From positions 1 to 49,097 of the forward strand of contig JAQUQR010000009.1 in NCBI GenBank assembly GCA_028715985.1: DNA of 49,097 bases. Direction: 5' to 3'. The first letter of the stretch is position 1; each line of letters opens with the position of its first letter. Source of the DNA: Methanocellales archaeon (GTDB lineage: Archaea; Halobacteriota; UBA148). Shown here piece after piece: positions 12,627-46,611 of the stretch. A program made the position numbers and the translations under genes. The notes beneath the pieces were generated by a model, which worked only from the letters and a program-made list of their open reading frames with translations, did no database searches and was not told the DNA's origin.

Positions 12627-15600
12627 TCACGAAATAAAATCTATGGTTATTAATTGTAATTTTGATTTATCAAAAGGTTCTACAATTGTTTTCTTGAATA
12701 TTCCTTTTTCCATTAAGAAATTGCTTAGTTCTTTAATCATTTCCTTCCAATCATTATCTTTTTTATACTGCCTCCAGATTCTTCTTAATACTTGCAGTCT
12801 TTTCTTGGTTGGAGGGATAGATATAAGTTTATTCTTTACAGGTTCCCAGAATTTTTCTATAGAGTCGTCATCAGGGAACTCATTAAGGTAGGAATCAATT
12901 TGTAATTCTATTTCAGTTATCATACTTTTTACAAATTTAGTACTTCTAGATTTGCTCAATTCTTTCAATTTTGAGTCTTGCGTTTGGCTTAACTCAATCT
13001 CTTTGTAAGCTCTTTCTATATCCTCAACTATTATTTTATTGACACCATATGTCTTTTCAAAGAAGTTAGGGATGTCTCTTTCTTTATTTGGTTTGCACGA
13101 TATGAAATCAATTATTTCGGTCTTATTGGTTAATATTGAGCCCGTGTTTACATCATACAAATACCAGAAGTGAAAATCATTACCATATTTGTAATAGAAA
13201 AATATGCCTGAAATTTGATCTTTCTTTAATCCGCTAAAAACACCATGGGGTATTTTTTCTAGTTCATCTAAAGCTCTTTTCTTCAGAAAATCTTTTAATG
13301 GTTGATAAAATTTTTCACCACCACCAAAAGCATCCTGCTCTAATTCTGCAAACACTCTAGAGTCTTTTTCTTTAATTTTTCTAATAACTCCAAATACTTT
13401 AGGATGTATTTCTTCCCCTAATATCGTCTGATCCAAACCTACTGATTTGTCAATGTCAATAATTTTATTTTGCAGAATTTCAACTAATTTTAATAGCCCT
13501 TCTAACTCATCTTCTGGGAAGAAGTTGTATACAAATATTTTTTCATAAGGAGAGCCAATTCTATCTATTCTGCCTGCTCTTTGGATCATTCTGGTTGGAT
13601 TCCAATGGAGATCATAATTAATGAGATACTTAGCTGTCTGAAGATTTTGTCCTTCTGACAAGACATCAGTACTCATTAAGATGTCAATCTCTTTTTTAAA
13701 CAACTTTTCTACAATTTTCTCTCTTTGTTGGGGATTTTTGCTTGTCAAACCAGAACTAGAAATTGCTTCAATTTTTAGCTTTGAGAATTTTTCGTCTTTT
13801 ATTATTTCATTATAAATGTAATTTAAAGTATCTGCATAATACGTAAACAGGATGACCTGTCCATCTTTTGACAGATTTAATAGCCTCTCTTTTAGAGCTT
13901 TTAATTTAGAGTCATCTTCTGGTTTGATAGTATCTATTTTTTCGAGAATTTCGCTTAGAAGTTTAATGTCCTTGTCTATGTCTTTAAATAACTTATCGGT
14001 ATTGTAACTTTTTAGTTCAAATTTTTCCAACACTTCGCTTAAGTCTTCTTCCCCTATTTCTTCATCTGCACGCATTACATATTTGACAAATGTTTGTTTT
14101 GTAAGCAGTTTTCCAGACTTCAGGTGAGATTTTAGTTCTTCTAAGAATCTTATATGGTTAAAAATACTCTTTCTGAAAGCGTCAACACTGCTTTCCAATC
14201 TTTTAAGCAGAATTGTTCTAAAAATTCCGCCAATAGCAATCATGCGTCCTAATGCAAGTCTTTCTTCTTCAGTTTTCAATCCTTCTTTTCTGTATTCTAA
14301 TATATTATAATAAGCCATTGTCAGTTTTTCTGTGATAGTATCTGAGATTTCTTTATACATTCCTTTGTAAGCCTTGTCTAATTGATAATTTATGTTCTCC
14401 AAGACCCTATCTGGAAAAACTATCTTTTGTTCCTTTCGTTCTCCATTGGGCTTTTCAATAAGAATATATGCATCTGGATAATTTTCAATGATATAATCTC
14501 TAGTTCTTCTTATTGAGATTTCATTTAACAAGTCATTTAGTAAAGAGGGATTGTCCTTTGCCTGCTTAAAGAACTTGAATAGGTCAGGAATATTTTCTTT
14601 AATAAATGAAGACCTATCCATCAAAATTAAGAGCATAATCTGCCAATACAAATCCCAAGGGGTATTATTTATTGGTGTAGCTGTCAAGAAAAGCATATAC
14701 GGTTTTTTACCTTTTTTAGCAATATTGTCATTAACCAAAGTGAAGAAGTTCTCCCATCTGTTTGACAAGGGATTTCTGAAATTGTGACTTTCATCAACAA
14801 CTATCAATTCTACATCATCAAATCTTCCGCCGAGAGTTTTCTTTGCTTTTTCTAAGAAATTTTCTGATGCCAAATTTTCCTGAGATAATATGTTTTCTTT
14901 AACATCTATTTTTTTCATCTCTTGAGACCACATTCCCATCAATTGAGCGGGGCATATTATCAGAATGTTTTTTCGTTCATAATATCCAATTTTTTCAAGG
15001 ATTTTTTTGGCAATCCATGTCTTCCCTAATCCGACAGAATCGGCGACAATGCAACCGCCATATTTCTTTAATCTTGTCCAGATTCTTGCGATGGCATCAT
15101 CTTGGAATTGTGCTAAGTTTACCTTAGTCTCCGGAAGACCTCTTGGTTTTTCCTTTTTATCCTCCTCTTTTATATCTTCTTTTTGCAATTCATACAATGT
15201 TTTGATATAGATTTCATAAGGCAAGTATTCCTTGCTTCCGAATCTGGAACTTTCCAATATCCCTATAAGCTCGTCTTTAAAGTCTCTTGACTCTAACCAA
15301 AACTTTTCAAACCATTCTCTTTTTGTGTATTCGGCCTGAGACCTCAATTGCCATGTATTTAATTCCCCATATCTTGTTAATCCAGCAGCAGTAAAGTTAG
15401 AAGAGCCAATGACAATCCTGTCATCAAAAATATAGGTTTTTCCATGCAAAAATCTCTCAAATAGTCTGATTTCAACATCTTTTCTTTTTAGAAATTCGAT
15501 AAACAACTTTATTGTTTTATCCTGTTCTTTTGTCAGATCAAAACCTTCAATCTCTTTTCGTATCTCCTGTAGAAGAACATCTCCGAGGGTTTTCTCATTT

Positions 15601-15803
15601 TGAATCTCTGGTGTTTTCCCAAGAAGAAGCCTGAAACTCTTAACTCCATTTAGATGGTCTTTGATCATGTCAAAGGCTTGAATGTTAAAGAAAGCTGTTG
15701 CTATGTCAAAATTTGTTTTCGGATTCTCCTTTAAAACATTATTCAGGAAACCGACTAATTTGTTTCCTTCACTGTTGTCTATGATTTCTTTTGGTATTGG
15801 CAT
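12627..15803 (-). CDS. PLD-nuclease/SNF2-type helicase fusion
   Basis: A protein of about 1058 aa. Seen, numbered from the ATG at 15803: a phospholipase-D-like HKD motif at about residue 120 (HGKTYIFDDRIVIGSSNFT), Walker A VGLGKT near 258-262, DESH motif II near 337-340, LTATPINN motif III, and motif VI QRAGRIDRIGS. A long C-terminal helical domain follows. Single-HKD proteins work as dimers to cut nucleic acids. Fusion of HKD and SWI2/SNF2 helicase is typical of prokaryotic defence loci. ATG at 15803 follows the HEPN stop as TAAAATG; an ATG at 15821 overlapping the HEPN gene is less likely. It sits in the methyltransferase cluster. Confidence 0.85.
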   Translation of the reverse strand: MPIPKEIIDNSEGNKLVGFLNNVLKENPKTNFDIATAFFNIQAFDMIKDHLNGVKSFRLLLGKTPEIQNEKTLGDVLLQEIRKEIEGFDLTKEQDKTIKLFIEFLKRKDVEIRLFERFLHGKTYIFDDRIVIGSSNFTAAGLTRYGELNTWQLRSQAEYTKREWFEKFWLESRDFKDELIGILESSRFGSKEYLPYEIYIKTLYELQKEDIKEEDKKEKPRGLPETKVNLAQFQDDAIARIWTRLKKYGGCIVADSVGLGKTWIAKKILEKIGYYERKNILIICPAQLMGMWSQEMKKIDVKENILSQENLASENFLEKAKKTLGGRFDDVELIVVDESHNFRNPLSNRWENFFTLVNDNIAKKGKKPYMLFLTATPINNTPWDLYWQIMLLILMDRSSFIKENIPDLFKFFKQAKDNPSLLNDLLNEISIRRTRDYIIENYPDAYILIEKPNGERKEQKIVFPDRVLENINYQLDKAYKGMYKEISDTITEKLTMAYYNILEYRKEGLKTEEERLALGRMIAIGGIFRTILLKRLESSVDAFRKSIFNHIRFLEELKSHLKSGKLLTKQTFVKYVMRADEEIGEEDLSEVLEKFELKSYNTDKLFKDIDKDIKLLSEILEKIDTIKPEDDSKLKALKERLLNLSKDGQVILFTYYADTLNYIYNEIIKDEKFSKLKIEAISSSGLTSKNPQQREKIVEKLFKKEIDILMSTDVLSEGQNLQTAKYLINYDLHWNPTRMIQRAGRIDRIGSPYEKIFVYNFFPEDELEGLLKLVEILQNKIIDIDKSVGLDQTILGEEIHPKVFGVIRKIKEKDSRVFAELEQDAFGGGEKFYQPLKDFLKKRALDELEKIPHGVFSGLKKDQISGIFFYYKYGNDFHFWYLYDVNTGSILTNKTEIIDFISCKPNKERDIPNFFEKTYGVNKIIVEDIERAYKEIELSQTQDSKLKELSKSRSTKFVKSMITEIELQIDSYLNEFPDDDSIEKFWEPVKNKLISIPPTKKRLQVLRRIWRQYKKDNDWKEMIKELSNFLMEKGIFKKTIVEPFDKSKLQLITIDFIS

Positions 15804-15804
15804 T

Positions 15805-16287
15805 TTATTCCATCGTCTCAATTATTTTCTTGATATTTGATACAAATGTCTTTGCATTTTTTACTGAGTCATCAGCAGGCTCTCGGTTTGCTTGTGGCAA
15901 GGTCTTGTATGTGAAATCCCCTCTTTTCTTTTTTTCTTCCCTGAATATTTGGAGAAGCTTATCTGCTCTGACAACCATCTTTCTATATATCTCTAAAAGC
16001 TTCACATCCAAGATGCCCGTATCCACAAGCTGCTCCTTGAATGCATCCAGTGTTTTCCTGTGAACGTCTGGCCAGTCTGTCTTTATATTTTTGGTAAGCA
16101 GTATCGCCTTTGCTGAGTAAAATATCGCATAATACGAATGAGAGATTACAGCGCTGTAGAATGTTTGATGTTTATCTATCTTGAAAGACTGTTTGACGTC
16201 ATTCTCGTCGCTGAGTTTTTTTACAGCGTCAGCGAGTATGGCCTCATTGTCTGCGCGGTCAAGATAGACTTTTACCATTGAATCCAT
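15805..16287 (-). CDS. HEPN-domain protein (second pair)
   Basis: A 160-aa helical protein of the PF05168-like HEPN class. Seen: helix 1 YLDRADNEAILADAVKKL, helix 2 SHSYYAIFYSAKAILL, and the signature loop RGDFTYKTLPQANREPAD followed by NAKTFV near the C-terminus. The Arg is followed by Tyr where RNase-active toxins have His. It overlaps the nucleotidyltransferase gene upstream by 20-29 bases (starts at 16287 or 16278) and ends one base before the helicase ATG, so it is embedded in the defence cluster. It may be a toxin or abortive-infection effector kept in check by its partner (inference). Confidence 0.75.
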   Translation of the reverse strand: MDSMVKVYLDRADNEAILADAVKKLSDENDVKQSFKIDKHQTFYSAVISHSYYAIFYSAKAILLTKNIKTDWPDVHRKTLDAFKEQLVDTGILDVKLLEIYRKMVVRADKLLQIFREEKKKRGDFTYKTLPQANREPADDSVKNAKTFVSNIKKIIETME

Positions 16288-16891
16288 TCTTTATCGCCTC
16301 GTTTATAATTCGATAATATTGGGCCCCACCTGTTATTATAAGGTTATTCTTTGCAATTTCTTTGCCATAATTTGCTTCGTTATTTGTCAGCATTTCTAAA
16401 TATTCCGAATTTTTAAATACATATGGGTGCCCTTTGGGTATCGAAAGCTCACAGGCATAGTTTATTTCGGCAAGGATATGCGTTGTATTTTGGGAATCAT
16501 CTACTATAATCACTATATCAAGGTCTGATGTCTCCTTTTGCTTGTGTTTGGCATAGCTGCCAGTTATGAGAAATGTGAAAAAAGTATTTGGAATCTTTTC
16601 ATTAACCTTTTTTATAATATCGAATGGAAGATGTTTCGAGCTCCAGCAGATGAATTCTGCAATAAATCCTGCGTAGACCTGTGTTTTTGGGTTATTGAGA
16701 TTTAGCGAGTATAAAATAACATTCCCTGCGCTTTCTTCTGATAGGATGTCTTCTTTTACGTATTTCTTGATTGCAGAATAAACATAGCTTTCAGATTTCT
16801 TCTTTGAAAGAGCCTTGATATCCTTAAAAGTAAATCTCTTCCAAGGCTCCCTTACGAAAGGGGTTAGTATTTGATAGTCTTTCTTTAGCAT
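16259..16891 (-). CDS. wHTH-nucleotidyltransferase (second pair)
   Basis: A 210-aa protein. Residues about 15-75 are winged-helix-like (TFKDIKALSKKKSESYVYS). Residues about 105-200 are a minimal nucleotidyltransferase with GS-x10-D-x-D in GSYAKHKQKETSDLDIVII. It is only distantly similar to the copy at 10598, so it is not a recent duplication. It overlaps the HEPN gene downstream and lies 77 bases after the methyltransferase stop, with its own paired repeats in that gap. The Shine-Dalgarno-like ggag before ATG 16891 supports this start. Likely role: antitoxin and self-repressor of the HEPN gene, by analogy with HepT/MntA. Confidence 0.75.
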   Translation of the reverse strand: MLKKDYQILTPFVREPWKRFTFKDIKALSKKKSESYVYSAIKKYVKEDILSEESAGNVILYSLNLNNPKTQVYAGFIAEFICWSSKHLPFDIIKKVNEKIPNTFFTFLITGSYAKHKQKETSDLDIVIIVDDSQNTTHILAEINYACELSIPKGHPYVFKNSEYLEMLTNNEANYGKEIAKNNLIITGGAQYYRIINEAIKNGFNGKSLS

Positions 16892-16897
16892 TTTAAC

Positions 16898-16932
16898 TCC
16901 TATTTTTAGGCATAATTAATCCTATTTTTAGG
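16898..16932 (-). promoter_or_regulatory. Two operator-like repeats 22 bases apart
   Basis: tcctatttttagg occurs at 16898-16910 and 16920-16932, exactly 22 bases apart (about two helical turns). Each has partial dyad symmetry; the second extends to atcctatttttaggat. They lie directly upstream of the nucleotidyltransferase ATG at 16891, a fitting site for its own wHTH domain. Confidence 0.5.
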
Positions 16933-16968
16933 ATTGATGTGTTTTTTACTTAAGGTATTTTAATATTT

Positions 16969-19900
16969 TCATCCTTTGCCATTAAAACTCCTCGCCTTCT
17001 CAAGCCTTTGTTTTACAAGCTCGCAAACTGCCCAGTAAACTTCTTTTCTCTCTTCTTTGGTCAATCCAAGCTCATCAAATATGATGTTATCAAGCTCAGC
17101 CCTGTCAGGAAGAGGCTTTGGTTGTTGCTCTCTGATTGGCTTGTCTGGATCGATGCCGAGTTCTGAGAAGATTGACAATAAATCTCTATTCTTGGGAATA
17201 AATTGATGCTTTAGCTTAGCTATTTTTGGCAAGATAACAAACTTATTCACTTCATAAACCATTAACGACTTTGCTCCTTCACCTAAGCCACTCCTAGATA
17301 AAATTTCTGAAATTAATGCCATTAATGAAGAATTTACAAAATTTTGCACATCAGGTGTTGATTTATTAAAGTACAATCTGCAATCGCAAAGCATATAACG
17401 TTCTGATACAAATGCCCCAAGTCGATCATTCGTTTCTTTAACCCAAAAGGTATTTCCTTCTTGATAATCCATAGAGTACCATCGTTTTCTTCCTGAAACA
17501 CTTGGCACCTTGCACCACAAAATCCCGTCTTTCGTTTTTTGTTTTTCACCCCATTCAATATACCTCAACGCATTTGTTCCCATCAGTTCTCCCTTCGGGC
17601 TGCGACACATGAAAACTCTGTACTTCAAGTCTTTGGGATCAATTATGATGGACTTGCACTCCCGTGGGCTCTTGATAACCGGTTTCAAGAACTCTTTTTC
17701 AATGTTCCATTTCTTTTGTGATTCTTCATCTAAGTAAAAAAATTCATTTGCGCCTGTCTTGATTCCAAATCTGACTTTGGCGATATCTCCAAGCCTAACA
17801 AGCTTTCCCCTTCCCTTCGCCAGTATCGTATAAAATATATCGGGAGCTCTCAGATATTTCCCGCCCCATTTATTGCCTTCATAATTGCCAGCCTTAAACC
17901 TTCCGTTCTTATAGTCCTCAGGATACTCCCAGCCGTCTTCAAGCAAATCCTCTTGGATTATTGGAAAAACCCTGTAATCGTTTGTGCTGACAACATTCTT
18001 CACCAGTTCAGTGATTCCTTCGCCCTTGGTTTTTGCTTTGGTGTTTTCAATTTCAATGAGATTCTGCGAAGACAAAACCTCTTCAAAGGGCTTCTTGAAC
18101 ATGACAAACTTTGCAGTATTTTGTAGCATTGTCCAGTCATTATTTCCACCAACCCTTAATCCTTCGATTTGTCTTTCTTCTTCAAATCTTGGAGCTCCGA
18201 ACAATGCAATGATCGTATTAACATCTGCATGGGCAAAGCTTCGTTTTGGATTATCATAAATTGCGTGAATTGGCGTATACTTCAGCAAGAACTCCTGCAA
18301 ATTCTTCCCATAGCCGACATCAAGCCAAGAATTAGAAGTAATAAAACAAAAACTTCCTTTTTCATTCAGAAGCGACAACCCATGGAAATAAAAATAGATG
18401 TAATAATCGCTTCTCCCATCAATTTTATTAATCACAGAAAATTGGTTTTTAACTGATTGAATAAGCTTTTCTTTGTATTCCCTTCTGTCTTCTGCTGATA
18501 CTTCTGACTTAATTTTGTTTGGCGGGGATATCATCTCTTGCCGGACATAAGGCGGATTTCCTATAACAATATCAAATCCATTTTTATCCCCAAATATTTC
18601 AGCAAAATCAATGTCCCAGATGAATGGCTTTTTTTCTGGGTCTTTCAGAACTTCTTTAACCTTTTTCAGCTTTTCAATCTCTTTTTCGTTAGCCTCGATT
18701 CTTGCCTCATTTTCTTTTACCTTTTTATCATCTATTTTATATTCCCCTGTTAAGGTTCTCTGGGATTTTGCTTTCTTAATTTCAGTTTCATAAACCTCTA
18801 TGTCTGTTCCCAGACTTTCAATCCTTTCATCGATAATCTCTTCAAAAAGTCTTATCTCTTCTGTTTTTACCTCTTCGGGAGTTTTGAATTTAGCTGTTAG
18901 AGAATTCTCAAAATATTTCCTTTTCTCTTGCTTTAGATTATCTAATTTTTTCTTTAGGTGTGGTTTCAGATTATTTGTCCTTACATTAAAGCTGATTCCA
19001 CCCATTTCCTGAACCAAAGAATCACCTATCCTTAGATTAAGATTTAGGTTAGGAAGAAGGGGATGTTTTCTCAATTCCTCTTTCTTGAATTCCGTCTCAA
19101 CAATCAACTGCAACCATAATCTTAGTTCAGCAGCATGAATAGCCCAAGGCATTACGTCAACGCCATAAAGAGAATATTGAATGATTTTGTTTTTCAGCTC
19201 AAAATCTGATAAATCTCTCTTAATGTGCCTAAAGATGATTCGGTAAAGTTCTACAAGAACATTCAACAAACCAACCAAAAAAGCTCCTGAACCGCAGGCA
19301 GGATCTACAGCGGATAGATTATCTAAGACTTCTTCTAACTTATACCATAATTTTTCCTTATCAAACCATTTCTCAATTCTCTCTTTTTCTTCTGGCAAAT
19401 CGAACACAAGATGATAAATTTTGTCTTTTTGAATATCTGGCAGTTGTTTTGATAAATATTCAACAATAGAACGCCTGCACATAAAGTCAACTTCAACTCT
19501 TGGGGTATAGAAAATTCCTAAATCATTCCTGTCATAAATCTCTTCAGCAACATTAGCTAAGGATTCATAAACATAACCAATCATTTGAGGATCAACTGCG
19601 ACCTCTGAATCAAGAGGCATATCTTCCTTTATTGTAAAATTGTACTTCTCAAAGAAATCAAATATTTTCTGGAACAAGCTGTCTGTTATTTTTACATTTA
19701 ATTCATCTAAGTCATTCTGCCTGAACAACCCACCATTAAGGTATGGGGAATTAGAAATTACTTTTATGACATCCTCTGGCAGGTCTGTTATTTCATTTGA
19801 ACGGTTATTAAATGCCTTAAAAAAGATTTGTTTTAACCAGATGCCATAAAATGCGTCATCTCTTTTGAAAACACCTTTTTTCTTATTTTTATCTCTTTTA

Positions 19901-20625
19901 TATTCTGTCCAGAACCATTCCATAAATTTGGCATCGCTAAGCCAACTTTTTTTAGATATAAAGTAAATGAACATTATTCTGTTCAGAAACTGCAGACTGA
20001 ATTCGTGAGACTCTTTTCTAGATATCTTCTGTCTGTCCAATTCTTTTCTTAATGTAAAGAAAATATTTTTGTAATCTTCAAAGAAACTCTCTGTTACCCT
20101 CTCTACGCTGAAGGCTTTGTTCCATTTTCTCCAGACATCACGCCAAGTCCCCTCTTTTTCGAAATTTATGTTTGCCAATGTTTGAATATCCGTATAATGA
20201 AGTGACTTTTTGTTTATGGTAAGTTTTGTTAGTTTTAATTTGTGTTTCCCAACTTCGATTTTCTCTCTCTTCGGATATACAAAGACAATCTCAGAGTAGT
20301 CTGTAGCAAATATTAATAGAAAGTGCAAGTACTGCTTATCAAAAGTTGTTGTTACAGACCTTATGAAGGACTGGACTAATGTTTTTGACTCAATCAGGAA
20401 AACAGGTAACTTTTCGTCAAAGCTTAGAATGGAGTAAATTTCTTTAATCCTTTCTGAATCCTCTTTTTTGAAATCAAAAGTATCCTTTTTTCTTTTAGAG
20501 GAGGTATCAAAAAGGACCCTTTCAGGATAGTTAAGATATTTGAAGAGTTCAAAAATATCTTTTGCTGAATTAATTTTACTGATATGCTCCTGCACTTCCC
20601 TTCTTAACTTAAACTCATCTTTCAT
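16969..20625 (-). CDS. Eco57I-like N6-adenine DNA methyltransferase, possible type IIG enzyme
   Basis: A 1218-aa protein. Seen: SAM-binding motif I DPACGSGAFL at 441-450, catalytic motif IV NPPYV at 690-694, a Lys/Glu-rich coiled insert between them (about 555-665), and a C-terminal region resembling TaqI/Eco57I target-recognition domains. Residues about 70-81 read FDEKLPVFLIESKT, a beta-strand with Glu-x-Lys that could be the core of a PD-(D/E)XK nuclease domain (inference). It is the first gene of the minus-strand cluster with the nucleotidyltransferase/HEPN pair, the PLD-helicase and the Cas4-like nuclease. It would mark self DNA and perhaps cut. Composition is clearly AT-rich compared with flanking housekeeping genes. 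Confidence 0.85.
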   Translation of the reverse strand: MKDEFKLRREVQEHISKINSAKDIFELFKYLNYPERVLFDTSSKRKKDTFDFKKEDSERIKEIYSILSFDEKLPVFLIESKTLVQSFIRSVTTTFDKQYLHFLLIFATDYSEIVFVYPKREKIEVGKHKLKLTKLTINKKSLHYTDIQTLANINFEKEGTWRDVWRKWNKAFSVERVTESFFEDYKNIFFTLRKELDRQKISRKESHEFSLQFLNRIMFIYFISKKSWLSDAKFMEWFWTEYKRDKNKKKGVFKRDDAFYGIWLKQIFFKAFNNRSNEITDLPEDVIKVISNSPYLNGGLFRQNDLDELNVKITDSLFQKIFDFFEKYNFTIKEDMPLDSEVAVDPQMIGYVYESLANVAEEIYDRNDLGIFYTPRVEVDFMCRRSIVEYLSKQLPDIQKDKIYHLVFDLPEEKERIEKWFDKEKLWYKLEEVLDNLSAVDPACGSGAFLVGLLNVLVELYRIIFRHIKRDLSDFELKNKIIQYSLYGVDVMPWAIHAAELRLWLQLIVETEFKKEELRKHPLLPNLNLNLRIGDSLVQEMGGISFNVRTNNLKPHLKKKLDNLKQEKRKYFENSLTAKFKTPEEVKTEEIRLFEEIIDERIESLGTDIEVYETEIKKAKSQRTLTGEYKIDDKKVKENEARIEANEKEIEKLKKVKEVLKDPEKKPFIWDIDFAEIFGDKNGFDIVIGNPPYVRQEMISPPNKIKSEVSAEDRREYKEKLIQSVKNQFSVINKIDGRSDYYIYFYFHGLSLLNEKGSFCFITSNSWLDVGYGKNLQEFLLKYTPIHAIYDNPKRSFAHADVNTIIALFGAPRFEEERQIEGLRVGGNNDWTMLQNTAKFVMFKKPFEEVLSSQNLIEIENTKAKTKGEGITELVKNVVSTNDYRVFPIIQEDLLEDGWEYPEDYKNGRFKAGNYEGNKWGGKYLRAPDIFYTILAKGRGKLVRLGDIAKVRFGIKTGANEFFYLDEESQKKWNIEKEFLKPVIKSPRECKSIIIDPKDLKYRVFMCRSPKGELMGTNALRYIEWGEKQKTKDGILWCKVPSVSGRKRWYSMDYQEGNTFWVKETNDRLGAFVSERYMLCDCRLYFNKSTPDVQNFVNSSLMALISEILSRSGLGEGAKSLMVYEVNKFVILPKIAKLKHQFIPKNRDLLSIFSELGIDPDKPIREQQPKPLPDRAELDNIIFDELGLTKEERKEVYWAVCELVKQRLEKARSFNGKG

Positions 20626-37516: not shown

Positions 37517-38365
37517 TTACCCTAGCCTATCCCATGCCCTCTTTTTGAGAGTTGTTACCAATACTATGAGTAATAGTATGATAATCCCTGCGATGATACC
37601 ATATTTTATAAGAGTGTTACGCGCCAGTTGACTTTCATAGGTTTCTATCGCAGCCCTTGCACTATCAGAGGCTCTTGTGGCTTCACCATAAGAATCTTCA
37701 GCCGCTTGTTTCGACGCACCCATATCCGGTACCTCATACAAAACTTTAGCGCGACCCCATGACCCCTCTGCTGAGTTAAGGAAACCTTTTGACGCTTCTA
37801 GCATCGCAGCTGGAACACCTGCATCTTCGGCAGATTTGATGTCTTCTTTAGCCATCATTATTCGCTCGTCAGCCCTGTCTATGGAAGCCAATACTTCATT
37901 AATTTCATCGGTCGTTACATAGGCTGAGATCGTTGTTATGGCTTTATCCCCTATCGAGATCTGCATCAAATGGTAGTATTCCTTCTTTCCAACTTCTGGT
38001 GCTGTGCCAGATAAGCCGATTGTTAGGGTGTCATATATCGAATGATCGAACTCCAGGGTAAATTCCCAACTACGATTTGTATCCTGATAAGCCCAACCGC
38101 TGGCATTTTCCATCTTAATGTCCCAAACTGGGTCAATCAAGCTCGTACTCAAATATAATGCGGTCCTGTCAGTCAGATCTGGACTGACCTCTTTCAAAAC
38201 AACCTCATCTATGTGTACCTTCTCCCCCACAAACAAATCCTCAGTGGGGACAGCACTCCTGGAAATTTCTTCAATTTTCTGCGCGAGGGCGCCTTGGGAT
38301 CCGATAGCAAGGACTAATAAAAATATTATGCCAAACGTGATCAACCTTCTCATTCCATCCCCCAT
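37517..38365 (-). CDS. Exported single-pass membrane protein with coiled coil, last gene of the cetZ cluster
   Basis: A 282-aa protein. Seen: a signal peptide (residues about 5-28, hydrophobic core ITFGIIFLLVLAIG), an extracellular beta-rich domain of about 130 residues, a helical Ala/Glu-rich stretch likely to form a coiled coil (about 155-250), and a C-terminal transmembrane helix near 255-273 with a short basic cytoplasmic tail. I recognise no family. Its ATG overlaps the cetZ stop (TGATG), so it is coupled to a tubulin-like cytoskeletal gene and may link it to the cell envelope (inference). Confidence 0.7.
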   Translation of the reverse strand: MGDGMRRLITFGIIFLLVLAIGSQGALAQKIEEISRSAVPTEDLFVGEKVHIDEVVLKEVSPDLTDRTALYLSTSLIDPVWDIKMENASGWAYQDTNRSWEFTLEFDHSIYDTLTIGLSGTAPEVGKKEYYHLMQISIGDKAITTISAYVTTDEINEVLASIDRADERIMMAKEDIKSAEDAGVPAAMLEASKGFLNSAEGSWGRAKVLYEVPDMGASKQAAEDSYGEATRASDSARAAIETYESQLARNTLIKYGIIAGIIILLLIVLVTTLKKRAWDRLG

Positions 38366-39537
38366 CAGAATAAAGGCTGTAAATCTTCGGCACTCATCAA
38401 CTCTTCGATTCTCTCGCCTTTTTTCTCACTAAACTCTGCCATTCTTATCTGTGCGTCTATAGCGAGTTGCTGCAGTTCTTTGATTCGTGGTACATTTGAC
38501 ACACCAGATAAAAGGACGACACCTGCCACGTATTTACTACCCGGGATTGGATAATCCCCCCCACGAACTTCTCCGCCACCTATCGCATCCTCAAGCCATA
38601 ATCTCGCTTTTTCCGTTCCGACTCTACTCAACTGATCCGGTGGTCCTGCTACCAAAACGAGGGCTTTTTCAGCACTTTTTATGTCGCAGGGCATAGTTAA
38701 CCGCCCCATGGCAGCCCTTCTTACCAAGGAAACGACCTTAGTAGTTGAATCCAGCGATTCTATGGATGTCTTTCTTCTGAACATGTTTCTGAGTTTTCTC
38801 AGCAAGCCAATTTTTTGTGCCTCTTCTCTTGCATAGCCGATGACTGAAATCTCTCCACCTTTGAGGGTGTTGATGATCTCGGACGAATCTATCACTGACT
38901 CCCCCACTGCCCCCTTGGTGGAACGTGGTGCTTCTCCTGCACCGAGTATGATGCCGAGTCTCCTGGAGATCTCCTCATTTATGTACTGATATGACTCTAC
39001 AAGGGTTGTTCCTTCCTTTTTCCAAGAATCATTATCGAATAAAAAGAGGGCATCAACCTCCTTGATAAATGTCATTAGACTCCTGGCTGCATTCAATGAA
39101 TATAGCGACCCCTCTTCATTTGATGGCAGTATTCCCAGACCATAGACTGGCTCTGAATAGAGTTTTTTCAGCCTTCTTGCAAGGACAGGAGCCCCACCCG
39201 ATCCTGTTCCACCTCCCAATCCAGCTGCTACCAAAAATGCCTCTGTCGCATGAGTGCCCCGTACATCCACAGCGCTTTGAATCGTATAGATGTCATCTGT
39301 AGCTATCTTTGCACCCATTTCATTGTCCGCACCAATGCCATGGCCTTTCGATACTGTCTGGCCTATGAGGAGGCGATCTTCCATTGGTATTTGGGTCAGA
39401 CCCATGAGATCTGTTTTGGCAGTATTAATAGCCAATGCCCTCGCAATGGAGCTTTGGTTGGTTTTCTTATCATATTCTAGGAGCAAATCTACTATCTTTC
39501 CTCCTGCCTGTCCAAAGCCAATTGCAAATAACTTCAT
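38365..39537 (-). CDS. cetZ: CetZ-family tubulin/FtsZ-like GTPase
   Basis: A 390-aa cytoskeletal GTPase. Seen: the N-terminal FAIGFGQAGGKI, the tubulin/FtsZ signature GGGTGSG at 108-114 followed by GAPVLARRLK, an Asn-rich nucleotide loop INTAKTDL near 38, and the CetZ-type segment RAAMGRLTMPCDIKSAEKALVLVAG, which differs from bacterial FtsZ. CetZ proteins control cell shape in haloarchaea. It lies between a PRC-barrel gene and a coiled-coil membrane-protein gene on the same strand. ATG at 39537 gives the canonical N-terminus. Confidence 0.9.
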   Translation of the reverse strand: MKLFAIGFGQAGGKIVDLLLEYDKKTNQSSIARALAINTAKTDLMGLTQIPMEDRLLIGQTVSKGHGIGADNEMGAKIATDDIYTIQSAVDVRGTHATEAFLVAAGLGGGTGSGGAPVLARRLKKLYSEPVYGLGILPSNEEGSLYSLNAARSLMTFIKEVDALFLFDNDSWKKEGTTLVESYQYINEEISRRLGIILGAGEAPRSTKGAVGESVIDSSEIINTLKGGEISVIGYAREEAQKIGLLRKLRNMFRRKTSIESLDSTTKVVSLVRRAAMGRLTMPCDIKSAEKALVLVAGPPDQLSRVGTEKARLWLEDAIGGGEVRGGDYPIPGSKYVAGVVLLSGVSNVPRIKELQQLAIDAQIRMAEFSEKKGERIEELMSAEDLQPLF

Positions 39538-39612
39538 TTTTATCCACTCTAGTGTTTATCTGCTCTATTTTTACCTTGTTTTTTGGATATTGTGTCAGAC
39601 CACTATATATAT

Positions 39613-40269
39613 CTATTCTATATCTGTAGGTATAACACGAATGTCTTTGAGTATAACGCAGTTATTATAAACGTTTTTCAGATATACCCCCTCAATGGGT
39701 ATCTCAAATAATTTCTTATCAGTCTTGACCTTCAGCTCAATCAGGTCTCCAGTTTTATCCTCATAAACGATGTCGATCACCGTTCCGATTAGGGTTCCAT
39801 CGATGTATATAACTTTTTGGCCGAAGATATCCTTTGCTGAGGGTTTATTATCTTTATACCGATGTATCAATTGTAATATGGATTCCTCCTTTTTTTTAAA
39901 TGAATCCATGCTGATTCCCATGAGCCTTGCAAGAGCTTTTGTATCCACGATGTCGCCCAAACCTCTCAGCTTCTCTCTACTACGCAAGTCATACAACATC
40001 GTATATACCTGGGCCTGAGCATAGGCAAATGGATCGAGTTTATTATTATTGACAAGATATTCTTTTGATATCCTTTTAACCTCATCACAAATGACATTGG
40101 AAAGCTCTTCTTTGGATAGATCATCTAGGATAACAGACGGAATCATAAAATCTTTCTTGACGAAGTGCTCTAGGGTTTCATCATCAACGGGCTCCATTAG
40201 GAAGTTCCAAGGAAAAAGACGGGAGCGTAAGTAATTATGAACTCTCTCTTTCATTATTTCTTTTTTCAT
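39613..40269 (-). CDS. PRC-barrel domain protein in the cetZ cluster
   Basis: A 218-aa cytosolic protein. Residues about 1-140 are helical and charged, without a recognised fold. Residues about 145-215 form a PRC barrel (VIYIDGTLIGTVIDIVYEDKTGDLIELKVKT pattern, cited in part; IPIEGVYLKNVYNNCVIL). PRC-barrel proteins such as CdpB take part in haloarchaeal cell division with SepF and FtsZ, so a place beside cetZ is suggestive, although the long N-terminal domain differs. The gene lies 18 bases after the upstream helical gene and 75 bases before cetZ. Confidence 0.75.
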   Translation of the reverse strand: MKKEIMKERVHNYLRSRLFPWNFLMEPVDDETLEHFVKKDFMIPSVILDDLSKEELSNVICDEVKRISKEYLVNNNKLDPFAYAQAQVYTMLYDLRSREKLRGLGDIVDTKALARLMGISMDSFKKKEESILQLIHRYKDNKPSAKDIFGQKVIYIDGTLIGTVIDIVYEDKTGDLIELKVKTDKKLFEIPIEGVYLKNVYNNCVILKDIRVIPTDIE

Positions 40270-40287
40270 AGCTTCCTTCCAAGTTTT

Positions 40288-41235
40288 TCATAATTTCCTT
40301 CGAAGCATTTGATACAATTTTGATGCTTTAGAGTTCTTCTTCTTTTCTACATCCTCTTCGGTGGGTACCTCGTTTCTGCACAGCAGCCAAACCCATTTTC
40401 CAAAATCCGTTACCTCATAGGTGTCGCCACGTTTCTCCACCAGGTTATAGTTCCAATCATCCCCGACCAGGTAATCCATGCTATCCTTCAGCAGTTCATC
40501 GTACATCTCACTCACGAGCCCTTTATACTCCTCATCCTCTATACTGCAAATTTCTTGAATTTCCTTTATATCTAATCCCCTGCCAGAATTGATTAAGACG
40601 TTGAAGCCTGTAAATGCATAATCTCTCTCCCTTAGACGTTTCCAGCATAAGTCCAGCTGGTTACTCCTGCCCAACATTTTTTTTGCGGTTTCTTGGAGAA
40701 GAGTGGTTACGGAATCTAAAATTTTTAATGCTTCAATATCATCGACATCTGGGGTTTTGATCGTCACTCCTTTATCGCTCAGCGTGGCATTTTTAAATTC
40801 GACAATAGGCTTCGGGTCGCCAAACAATATGTCGGTTAATGCCCTGAAATATTGCTCTGTTAGGGGTTCTCTCTCTGGATCGTAGGGATATAGGTTGCCA
40901 TGCCTCATATCCAGACTGGGACCAAAGTATGCCACCAGCTCAAGAAGATCGCGTCTCACTTGTTCAATACTTGCAAAATCACCCTCTTTAGCGTCTATCG
41001 TTCTACTTAACTGTTTCAACTCTTTCTCTAATTGCGACCTGAGATTACCACCAATCCCTTTGTTTAACAGCGTCTCAATGTCATTTATCTTTTTTCGTAT
41101 TTCATCCGGGTCATCAGCACCTGCACGGCCTTTCAAAAGCCAATATTCATTCGCCAGTATAATTGCCCTTTCGTTAAAGGCAGCTTCACGCATGATTACT
41201 CCAGTTGAAACATCTTTAAAGGCAGCTTCACGCAT
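40288..41235 (-). CDS. Uncharacterised helical protein, first gene of the cetZ cluster
   Basis: A 315-aa protein of unknown function, largely helical and charged, with a coiled-coil-like stretch at about 45-90 and an acidic middle. No signal peptide or transmembrane segment. The end (EVTDFGKWVWLL) resembles a wHTH wing, but I would not claim it. A 27-base direct repeat places two near-identical start contexts, ATG at 41235 and at 41193, 42 bases apart in frame; the second may be the original start. It opens the minus-strand cluster with the PRC-barrel, CetZ and membrane proteins and likely shares their role (inference). Confidence 0.65.
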   Translation of the reverse strand: MREAAFKDVSTGVIMREAAFNERAIILANEYWLLKGRAGADDPDEIRKKINDIETLLNKGIGGNLRSQLEKELKQLSRTIDAKEGDFASIEQVRRDLLELVAYFGPSLDMRHGNLYPYDPEREPLTEQYFRALTDILFGDPKPIVEFKNATLSDKGVTIKTPDVDDIEALKILDSVTTLLQETAKKMLGRSNQLDLCWKRLRERDYAFTGFNVLINSGRGLDIKEIQEICSIEDEEYKGLVSEMYDELLKDSMDYLVGDDWNYNLVEKRGDTYEVTDFGKWVWLLCRNEVPTEEDVEKKKNSKASKLYQMLRRKL

Positions 41236-41242
41236 AATTACT
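41174..41242. repeat. 27-base direct repeat over two start codons
   Basis: ttaaaggcagcttcacgcat plus attact-type ends recur at 41174-41200 and 41216-41242 with one mismatch. Each copy holds an in-frame ATG (minus strand), so the duplication adds 14 codons MREAAFKDVSTGVI to the gene start. Confidence 0.85.
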
Positions 41243-41305
41243 CACTTGTACACTTTTTAGGTAATCCATAACCCATATTAGTAACTTACTATATAAGTAG
41301 TTGTG

Positions 41306-45786: not shown

Positions 45787-46611
45787 TCACAAATGAAATT
45801 TATTGGACCGCTTGCGATACCATTCAAACAATTCCCACCCCCATTCAATACCTTCCTTAGTGGAATCTACTATATCCTTATTCCAGTCGTATGTACCATC
45901 AAAATTAAACAAACCAAGCGATAGGAGGCTGTCAGTAACCGTAAAAGCAACTTTTAAGTCTTTTTTCATTACGTATAATTTAAGTTTAGAGCTTTTTTCA
46001 GAGAAGATTTCTTTCAGGATTTCCTGGTCTATTCCTCCCAATACTTCTTCTGATATTATAAGCTCCACATCAATATTTTTCTCGATTGTAAGCTCTTTAA
46101 ATAGTGGTCCAAAATCAGGGATGGACATGGAAGTTACCCCCCTTATCTCTTTAGCATTTCTCAGAATATCGACGAAGCTTGTGAAGACTTGTAAAACATC
46201 AGCGGCAGGAGCCTCTACCATACTGGAGTTTCGCAATGCCCCAATTCTCTCAAGCAAATGTTCCGGAATGTCGCTGAGGTCATGAGTACGCCAAAAGCCC
46301 TCGTACTTTTCCAATACATCAATCGCCTCCAAAAAATCGAGTAGCTTCAAGGCGACAATTTCGCCGATTTTCGTTAACACATAATCCTTGGCTTCATCTT
46401 GAAAAATGAATTTGCCCTTTTCAAGCTCTCTTAGTGCATGTATGGCTGTTGTAGAGCTTGCTTCCATCTCATCTCGTAATTCGCTCAGTGGTTTCTTGCC
46501 CTTTTTCAAGCTAACTAAAATACCGCTTCTCAGATCGGAACAAGCAGCGAGGCGAAGCATAGCACGAACAATCTTCGATCTCTTTTTTTCATTTTCATCT
46601 GAAGCGCACAT
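45787..46611 (-). CDS. wHTH transcription regulator with FilR1 (DUF1724) domain
   Basis: A 274-aa methanogen-type regulator. Residues about 12-85 are an ArsR-like winged helix (LSELRDEMEASSTTAIHALREL). Residues about 130-260 match the FilR1/DUF1724 ligand-domain layout (EIRGVTSMSIPDFGPLF, VELIISEEVL, LYVMKKDLKVAFTVTDSLLSLGLF). The family is abundant in Methanosarcinales-like archaea; FilR1 controls filament formation and methane-path choice in one methanogen. It is divergent from the duplicated promoter region of the AAA+ gene and may regulate it (inference). ATG at 46611. Confidence 0.8.
   Translation of the reverse strand: MCASDENEKKRSKIVRAMLRLAACSDLRSGILVSLKKGKKPLSELRDEMEASSTTAIHALRELEKGKFIFQDEAKDYVLTKIGEIVALKLLDFLEAIDVLEKYEGFWRTHDLSDIPEHLLERIGALRNSSMVEAPAADVLQVFTSFVDILRNAKEIRGVTSMSIPDFGPLFKELTIEKNIDVELIISEEVLGGIDQEILKEIFSEKSSKLKLYVMKKDLKVAFTVTDSLLSLGLFNFDGTYDWNKDIVDSTKEGIEWGWELFEWYRKRSNKFHL

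Follow-up and report, generated by a model that had tools for sequence, protein, structure and literature searches.

Is the tubulin-family GTPase CetZ tied to the archaeal cell envelope, and by which protein? The question is raised by four minus-strand genes in a 49,097-nucleotide stretch of DNA from a Methanocellales archaeon (contig JAQUQR010000009.1), which is one whole contig of a 1.5-Mb archaeal genome and is hereafter called the window. In the direction of transcription, these genes encode a coiled-coil and winged-helix protein (HEL), a PRC-barrel protein (PRC), CetZ, and an envelope protein (TM) (Table 1). A preliminary description had proposed that they form a cytoskeleton-to-envelope module outside haloarchaea. 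The comparisons described here suggest that a membrane-protein gene located directly after cetZ in many archaea ties the internal skeleton to the surface. We put at about 0.5 the probability that cetZ and TM form a two-gene unit linking the CetZ filament to the cell surface; the conserved gene order and the standing of TM as the most widely kept neighbour bear out the proposed module in part, whereas the physical link is what we infer from them.

A membrane-protein gene follows cetZ across archaea

The window CetZ carries a tubulin GTPase domain (PF00091, 6.2e-34) and a CetZ_C domain (PF21011, 1.1e-65). Among solved chains it matches 4b46 best (454.6 bits), followed by 4b45 (278.9 bits), 3zid, labelled "Tubulin/FtsZ, GTPase" (66.7 bits), and the next FtsZ chain, 2r6r (54.7 bits). 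According to the legends of PMC9856176, 4b46 is CetZ1 and 4b45 is CetZ2; judged by these matches, the window protein is CetZ1-like, nearer to CetZ1 than to CetZ2 or FtsZ. Two further tubulin-family genes lie on other contigs of the genome, and since CetZ_C is matched only at the window gene, these two are FtsZ-type.

To place the pair in a wider context, profiles were run against a phylum sample of 147 genomes, of which 92 match the TM profile and 100 match CetZ_C, some weakly. Places with a CetZ_C score of at least 184 bits were counted as strong CetZ, giving 133 places in 96 genomes. A TM-profile match lies downstream on the same strand at 71 of these places, in 71 of the 96 genomes, so that there is one pair per genome. 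In 14 of 17 families every genome with strong CetZ has the pair; the proportion is lower in f7 (8/23, with a few pairs in which the match covers just the end of the TM protein), f20 (3/10) and f18 (0/3). In addition, 80 named loci with 81 CetZ genes were fetched via the CetZ alignment, and TM follows 51 of these genes; two of the remaining 30 are too close to a contig end to judge. The pair is present in Haloferax, in which four species were seen with a TM homologue, and in Halorussus, Halapricum and other haloarchaea, which contradicts the proposal that the module is a feature outside this group.

The association is close, with a median gap of 14 bases between cetZ and TM (21 loci, window included). 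A set of 23 loci from nine lineages was selected for holding the pair. In this set the TM cluster is shared by nine lineages (19 loci) and HEL by four; PRC and a further, scattered family are each shared by three, and everything else by at most two. On the CetZ tree, the paired or unpaired state of cetZ is clustered, with 14 changes against a shuffled mean of 27.7; this is a quick tree with 28 of 87 inner branches open, which fixes neither the root nor how old the pair is. On the evidence of these neighbourhoods, cetZ-TM is the deep, widespread pair, and TM the most widely conserved cetZ neighbour found. One may argue that such an order persists without functional linkage, since within the genus the metabolic genes on either side are kept as well; across the order and between lineages, however, these neighbours change and the pair stays, and we regard this explanation as very improbable.

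Architecture of the TM protein

No Pfam family matches TM. Nevertheless, the AlphaFold2 model built from 42 sequences has a mean predicted local distance difference test score (pLDDT) of 91.5, with strands within residues 31-151 and helices at 153-181, 186-211 and 215-281, the last of which runs through the membrane segment in the model. The 13 Foldseek matches at E <= 0.001 are to beta-sandwich proteins of various kinds and have low TM-scores, which points to a generic fold, and VIA matches to the outer domain have Z scores of 8.5 and below, near the level that the tool calls common. The model can be read with confidence as a predicted immunoglobulin-like (Ig-like) outer domain, a stalk, a membrane helix and a short basic tail.

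A common architecture, consisting of a signal-peptide-like start, a beta domain, a helical stalk, a C-terminal membrane helix and a short basic tail, is seen for the gene downstream of cetZ in haloarchaea, in an Archaeoglobi-type genome, in three Methanomicrobia-type families, in ANME-1-type genomes and in the window's own order. "ANME-1-type" is our own working grouping of 15 loci, mostly Methanophagales, drawn partly from the CetZ tree. The alignment used here (A1) has TM rows from 21 of 25 loci with cetZ; L086, L087, L092 and L095 are without such a neighbour. When the outer domains (residues ~25-150) of five lineage profiles were compared by hhalign, the probability was 83-99% in nine of ten comparisons, while all ten reversed decoys scored below 1%. 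The exception is the window's order against Archaeoglobi, at 29% with the outer domain only and 96% with the stalk included.

The preliminary description had also noted that the TM start overlaps the cetZ stop. The listed open reading frames (ORFs) do overlap by one base, but Met5 of TM (38353) stands in an alignment column that hardly varies from relative to relative and is the probable true start; the overlap is thus uncertain in this genome.

A proposed link from CetZ to the cell surface, and what weighs against it

If cetZ and TM form a linking unit, CetZ polymers lying against the inner side of the membrane would engage the short basic tail of TM, which is taken as cytoplasmic by the positive-inside rule, and the acidic C-terminal tail of CetZ, ending in PLF, possibly mediates this contact. 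TM would carry the link across via its one membrane helix, continuing as an outer stalk topped by the Ig-like domain, and this domain may contact the S-layer or other surface proteins. Upstream, in the window lineage and in ANME-1, HEL and the large PRC protein might serve as a CetZ-associated adaptor or regulator complex.

Several findings weigh against this link. First, the predicted cytoplasmic tail of TM is merely ~9 residues long, and its columns are conserved no more highly than the rest of the protein (0.28 versus 0.26-0.29). Among 51 paired proteins, the tail is aromatic-D-x-L in 25, RxRGxY-like in 15 (the ANME-1-type) and of another kind in 11. The aromatic-D-x-L motif is also missing from the four tandem second TM copies of f7 and from nine unlinked ones of other CetZ-bearing families. 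Second, CetZ can be present without an adjoining TM: 15 of 23 f7 genomes have no TM match beside cetZ, and Halorubrum and relatives keep CetZ with its tail while a strong TM homologue is absent. The genomes of 18 haloarchaeal loci without an adjoining TM gave no match in 14 cases, a weak one in one and a TM elsewhere in three, in a genome-wide search whose positive controls, two Haloferax, both matched; in all three TM-less haloarchaeal loci tested, cofC lies directly after cetZ. Third, five genomes of family f9 have TM homologues but no CetZ_C match.

Other observations on the two tails stand beside these. The unlinked best TM copies of CetZ-bearing f7 genomes keep the aromatic-D-x-L tail in 7/7 cases (seven of ten with E < 1e-10 were examined), and all four Archaeoglobi-type genomes whose loci are without an adjoining TM have a match elsewhere, one at 2.8e-5. 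TM-family genes also stand in tandem away from cetZ in Archaeoglobus-type genomes of f7 (L181, L182, L184, L194), where one ends in WDELR and the next in DKW. The f9 tails (L080-L083, L195) are without aromatic-D-x-L, and this contrast with the f7 copies speaks for the link. On the CetZ side, some TM-unpaired cetZ genes are second CetZ copies. Three ANME-1-type copies are without both a PLF tail and a downstream TM (L122:9989-11071, L124:5737-6822, L125:271-1341), but four copies with an APLF tail are also without TM, and hence tail and partner are not tied one-to-one. A universal WDxLG tail as the CetZ-binding motif is weakened by the count of 25/51 given above, and obligate coupling of CetZ and TM is ruled out by the haloarchaea with CetZ and no TM, together with f9.

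These data also bear on a different role for TM, as a client rather than an anchor: CetZ would guide the insertion or placement of TM, an envelope or S-layer-assembly protein, and the two genes would be linked for co-expression and dosage. Such a role would fit a very short and variable tail, a protein most of which is the predicted outer part, the loss of TM while CetZ stays, and the retention of TM without CetZ in f9. It fits less well with close pairing at one pair per genome, and strong TM matches without CetZ are confined in the sample to f9 and the contig-broken genome G072. We consider the client role unlikely and favour the linking unit.

Two modules rather than one operon

The cluster was originally described as four tightly spaced minus-strand genes, and the ORF listing bears this out, with 18 bases between HEL and PRC and 75 between PRC and cetZ. 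It was further suggested that conservation of gene order be examined in relatives, and the neighbours of cetZ do not vary freely. The arrangement HEL-PRC-CetZ-TM is kept in the same order and strand in nine of ten relatives from the same order (L064-L072), the tenth (L073) being a contig of 4 kb that breaks off in cetZ; of the metabolic genes on either side, only some are kept among these relatives. All four genes are also found in two genomes of another family (G015 and G042; L076, L077), with protein identities of 26-62%. HEL occurs in 21 of the 80 named loci, always followed by PRC and CetZ, and 20 of them have TM, while L096 ends 55 bases after cetZ. These 21 loci come from "Methanocellales" and other unclassified metagenome-assembled genomes, Mnemosynella, Methanoxibalbensis and the 15 ANME-1-type loci. 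With recurrence at such low identity in another family, and in 20 of the named loci, the clustering cannot be put down to chance.

However, the four genes do not behave as a single module. In the phylum sample, HEL is found in 28 of 147 genomes (families f1-f3, f8, f16, f24) and co-occurs with CetZ in 26 of them, a point in favour of its association with CetZ; the other two, G072 and G097, are without a CetZ_C match and have contigs that end inside the locus. The HEL-PRC pair is present in six sampled families and is apart from cetZ in two: HEL-PRC and cetZ-TM are separated in G033 and G082 (f16) and in G146 (f24). In G082 and G146, the stretch fetched around each pair does not contain the other, and the fragmentation of G117 precludes a judgement. 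Moreover, the PRC-cetZ spacer is the longest, with a median of 79 bases compared with 19 for HEL-PRC and 14 for CetZ-TM (n=22, 22 and 21). When related HEL-PRC-CetZ loci were searched for three TATA-like octamers within 130 bases upstream of each gene, one was found before cetZ in 17/21 loci (summed shuffle expectation ~1.3), and before PRC in 1/21, TM in 0/20 and HEL in 2/21. None of the three octamers occurs exactly upstream of cetZ in the window; a TATA-like sequence there is listed in Table 1. The octamers before cetZ point to a probable separate promoter for cetZ-TM. A single four-gene operon is rejected as the unit on account of the separated pairs, the longest spacer between PRC and cetZ, and these octamers, so that the proposed four-gene module, though its order recurs, is two modules: a broader cetZ-TM and a narrower HEL-PRC.

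An additional tubulin-family gene appears beside HEL in the ANME-1-type loci, of which 10 of 15 have an ftsZ upstream of HEL in divergent orientation (L102, L105, L106, L108, L110, L114, L115, L119, L120, L121). This ftsZ is nearest to the ftsZ on contig C10 of the window genome (54-59% identity, versus 38-43% to its C2 ftsZ). Of the other five loci, three have less than 3 kb of upstream sequence, and L117 and L118 have more than 7 kb without ftsZ. This neighbour, and the part played by PRC-barrel proteins in Haloferax division as described in the text available for PMC12186497, would suit a scheme in which the four genes serve division rather than shape, with PRC and HEL joining FtsZ and CetZ at midcell. 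Such a scheme sits poorly with L117 and L118, with the location of the window genome's ftsZ genes on other contigs, and with a PRC family that is not the short CdpB-like one, and we regard it as quite unlikely. A broader form of the linking unit, in which TM would be a general transmembrane CetZ receptor across Halobacteriota, its short tail capturing CetZ filaments, and HEL/PRC would couple the link to a cytoplasmic adaptor in ANME-1 and the window's order, and in ANME-1 also to FtsZ, is offered tentatively, as possible with the odds somewhat against it.

The upstream pair: HEL and the PRC protein

Hydropathy shows no membrane segment in HEL or PRC, either in the window proteins or in the 21 named relatives examined for each. 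The HEL model (22 sequences; pLDDT 84.4) has helices at residues 20-102, a mixed middle part and a winged helix at ~193-290. In fold comparisons of this model, residues 191-295 match RosR, MecI and PadR with Z scores of 10.2 to 9.2 in closely tied rows, among which is also TubR (6aht; Z 9.2, root-mean-square deviation 3.7, 98 aligned). HEL had been described as an unknown helical protein; helical it is, and the predicted C-terminal winged helix now gives it a recognizable domain. Pfam gives sub-threshold matches only, including weak helix-turn-helix (HTH) families, and Foldseek gives nothing at E <= 0.001. ESCRT-III/CdvB was considered because of the helical hairpin and winged helix, but draws no support from sequence: Snf7 is absent among the five Pfam families matched by 13 HEL members at E up to 0.1. 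A single weak Foldseek match to the hairpin is 4abm (E 2.1).

All 22 members examined have a winged helix with a net acidic charge (mean -6.9, range -12 to -2), and for its third helix the average is -1.6; this leans towards protein binding. This matters for another possibility, that HEL is a DNA-binding transcription factor for the locus and PRC its partner, making the upstream pair regulatory and not cytoskeletal. The likeness to RosR, MecI and PadR and the weak HTH matches speak for a regulator; the uniform acidity makes DNA binding somewhat less probable. We judge such a transcription factor rather improbable and prefer the CetZ-associated complex proposed above.

The start of HEL probably lies at 41193, because residues 1-18 have pLDDT < 50 and HEL of the relative L067 begins at the second MREAAFNE. 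A 28-base direct repeat with one mismatch (window 41174-41201 / 41216-41243) lies at the HEL start and doubles the MREAAF coding.

The PRC protein consists of an N-terminal domain of ~140 residues with conserved FPWN and PFAxxQ, followed by the PRC barrel. The preliminary description had noted that it has the CdpB-type fold. The genome has three PRC-barrel genes, two of them short ones elsewhere (99 and 88 residues), and the short proteins match the solved chains 8qzo and 8onw with best E-values of 4.2e-24 and 1.1e-15, compared with 1.4e-5 (8qzo) for the window protein. The PDB search labels both chains PRC-barrel proteins only; we take them to be CdpB proteins. If they are, the CdpB counterparts in this genome are the two short proteins. 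Orthology of the window protein to CdpB was rejected on these far better matches: the PRC fold is common to both, but the window protein belongs to a different, larger family. The large PRC protein is also kept in G024 and G056, which have no CetZ_C match (L078:5762-8466, L079:5996-8766), so the family is not exclusive to CetZ. The gene next after PRC in these two loci encodes ~665 residues with a weak match to MutS domain V (MutS-V).

Features of the locus and elsewhere in the window

Table 1. Positions in the window of the four genes, their domains and the candidate promoter element
Feature	Position	Strand	Basis
TM, envelope protein, 282 residues, single C-terminal membrane helix	37517..38365	-	ORF; cetZ-adjacent homologues; AlphaFold2 model, pLDDT 91.5
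TM residues 274-282, basic tail ending WDRLG, taken as cytoplasmic	37520..37546	-	Positive-inside rule, inferred
TM residues ~253-273, predicted membrane helix continuous with last stalk helix	37547..37609	-	Hydropathy (relatives and window); helix 215-281
TM residues 153-252, predicted helical stalk	37610..37909	-	Model: helices 153-181, 186-211, first part of 215-281
TM residues 31-151, Ig-like beta sandwich, predicted outside the cell	37913..38275	-	Model; VIA ~27-153, Z <= 8.5
CetZ, 390 residues, C-terminal tail ..EDLQPLF	38365..39537	-	Pfam; closest solved chain 4b46
TATA-like GATATATATAG	39603..39613	-	Sequence; ~65-75 bases upstream of cetZ start
PRC protein, 218 residues	39613..40269	-	ORF; Pfam; alignment of relatives
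PRC-barrel domain, residues 145-203	39661..39837	-	PF05239, 5.5e-8
HEL, coiled-coil and winged-helix protein, 315 residues	40288..41235	-	ORF; relatives; model
HEL residues 193-290, predicted winged helix, net acidic	40366..40659	-	Predicted model; fold match

Elsewhere in the window, positions 12627-20625 hold a large Eco57I-type methylase gene and, separated from it by two smaller ORFs, a gene for an SNF2 helicase with a PLD-like domain; from its gene content this region looks like a restriction or defence island. At 45787-46611, near an F420 ligase gene, is a gene with a match to the FilR1 family of methanogenesis regulatory proteins.

Comparison with known systems

The neighbourhood of cetZ has been described in Haloferax and Thermococcales. 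In the accessible text of Brown & Duggin 2023, genes reported near cetZ include the nolA epimerase, F420, purine and type IV pili genes, and in Thermococcales cetZ adjoins pili genes (PMC9856176). The window resembles the Haloferax CetZ1 neighbourhood in its CetZ1-like protein and in having an F420 gene and a sugar-epimerase-type gene nearby; it differs in that the downstream membrane protein, HEL and this PRC family are not discussed in that text, although the membrane protein may be among its uncharacterised arCOGs (PMC9856176). The available portions of PMC9856176, PMC12186497, PMC7617429, PMC11621097 and PMC10869688 name no transmembrane CetZ partner, and the accessible CetZ and PRC/CdpB literature gives no account of a cetZ-adjacent membrane protein. 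A review, in the part available, poses the relation of CetZ filaments to the envelope machinery as a question (PMC7617429). A gene that follows cetZ in the majority of sampled families with CetZ, and also in Haloferax genomes known by name, offers a directly testable candidate in a genetically tractable genus. To our knowledge, it would be unusual for a prokaryotic tubulin-family cytoskeleton to be linked by a protein lying mostly outside the cell.

Three systems invite comparison. CdpB1 and CdpB2 share the PRC-barrel fold with the window PRC protein, which differs in its 218 residues and extra N-terminal domain. In plasmid partition by TubZ-TubR, the gene for a tubulin-family GTPase lies near that for a winged-helix protein; the window has the same juxtaposition, but the fold match is generic and the HEL winged helix is acidic. 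CdpA, of the FtsZ division machinery, is a membrane protein. A parallel to the proposed role of TM is found in SepF and CdpA in archaeal FtsZ division, since in both cases a tie between a tubulin-family polymer and the membrane is proposed (PMC12186497, in the text available). Unlike them, TM is single-pass and, by prediction, lies mostly outside the cell, with ~9 residues inside.

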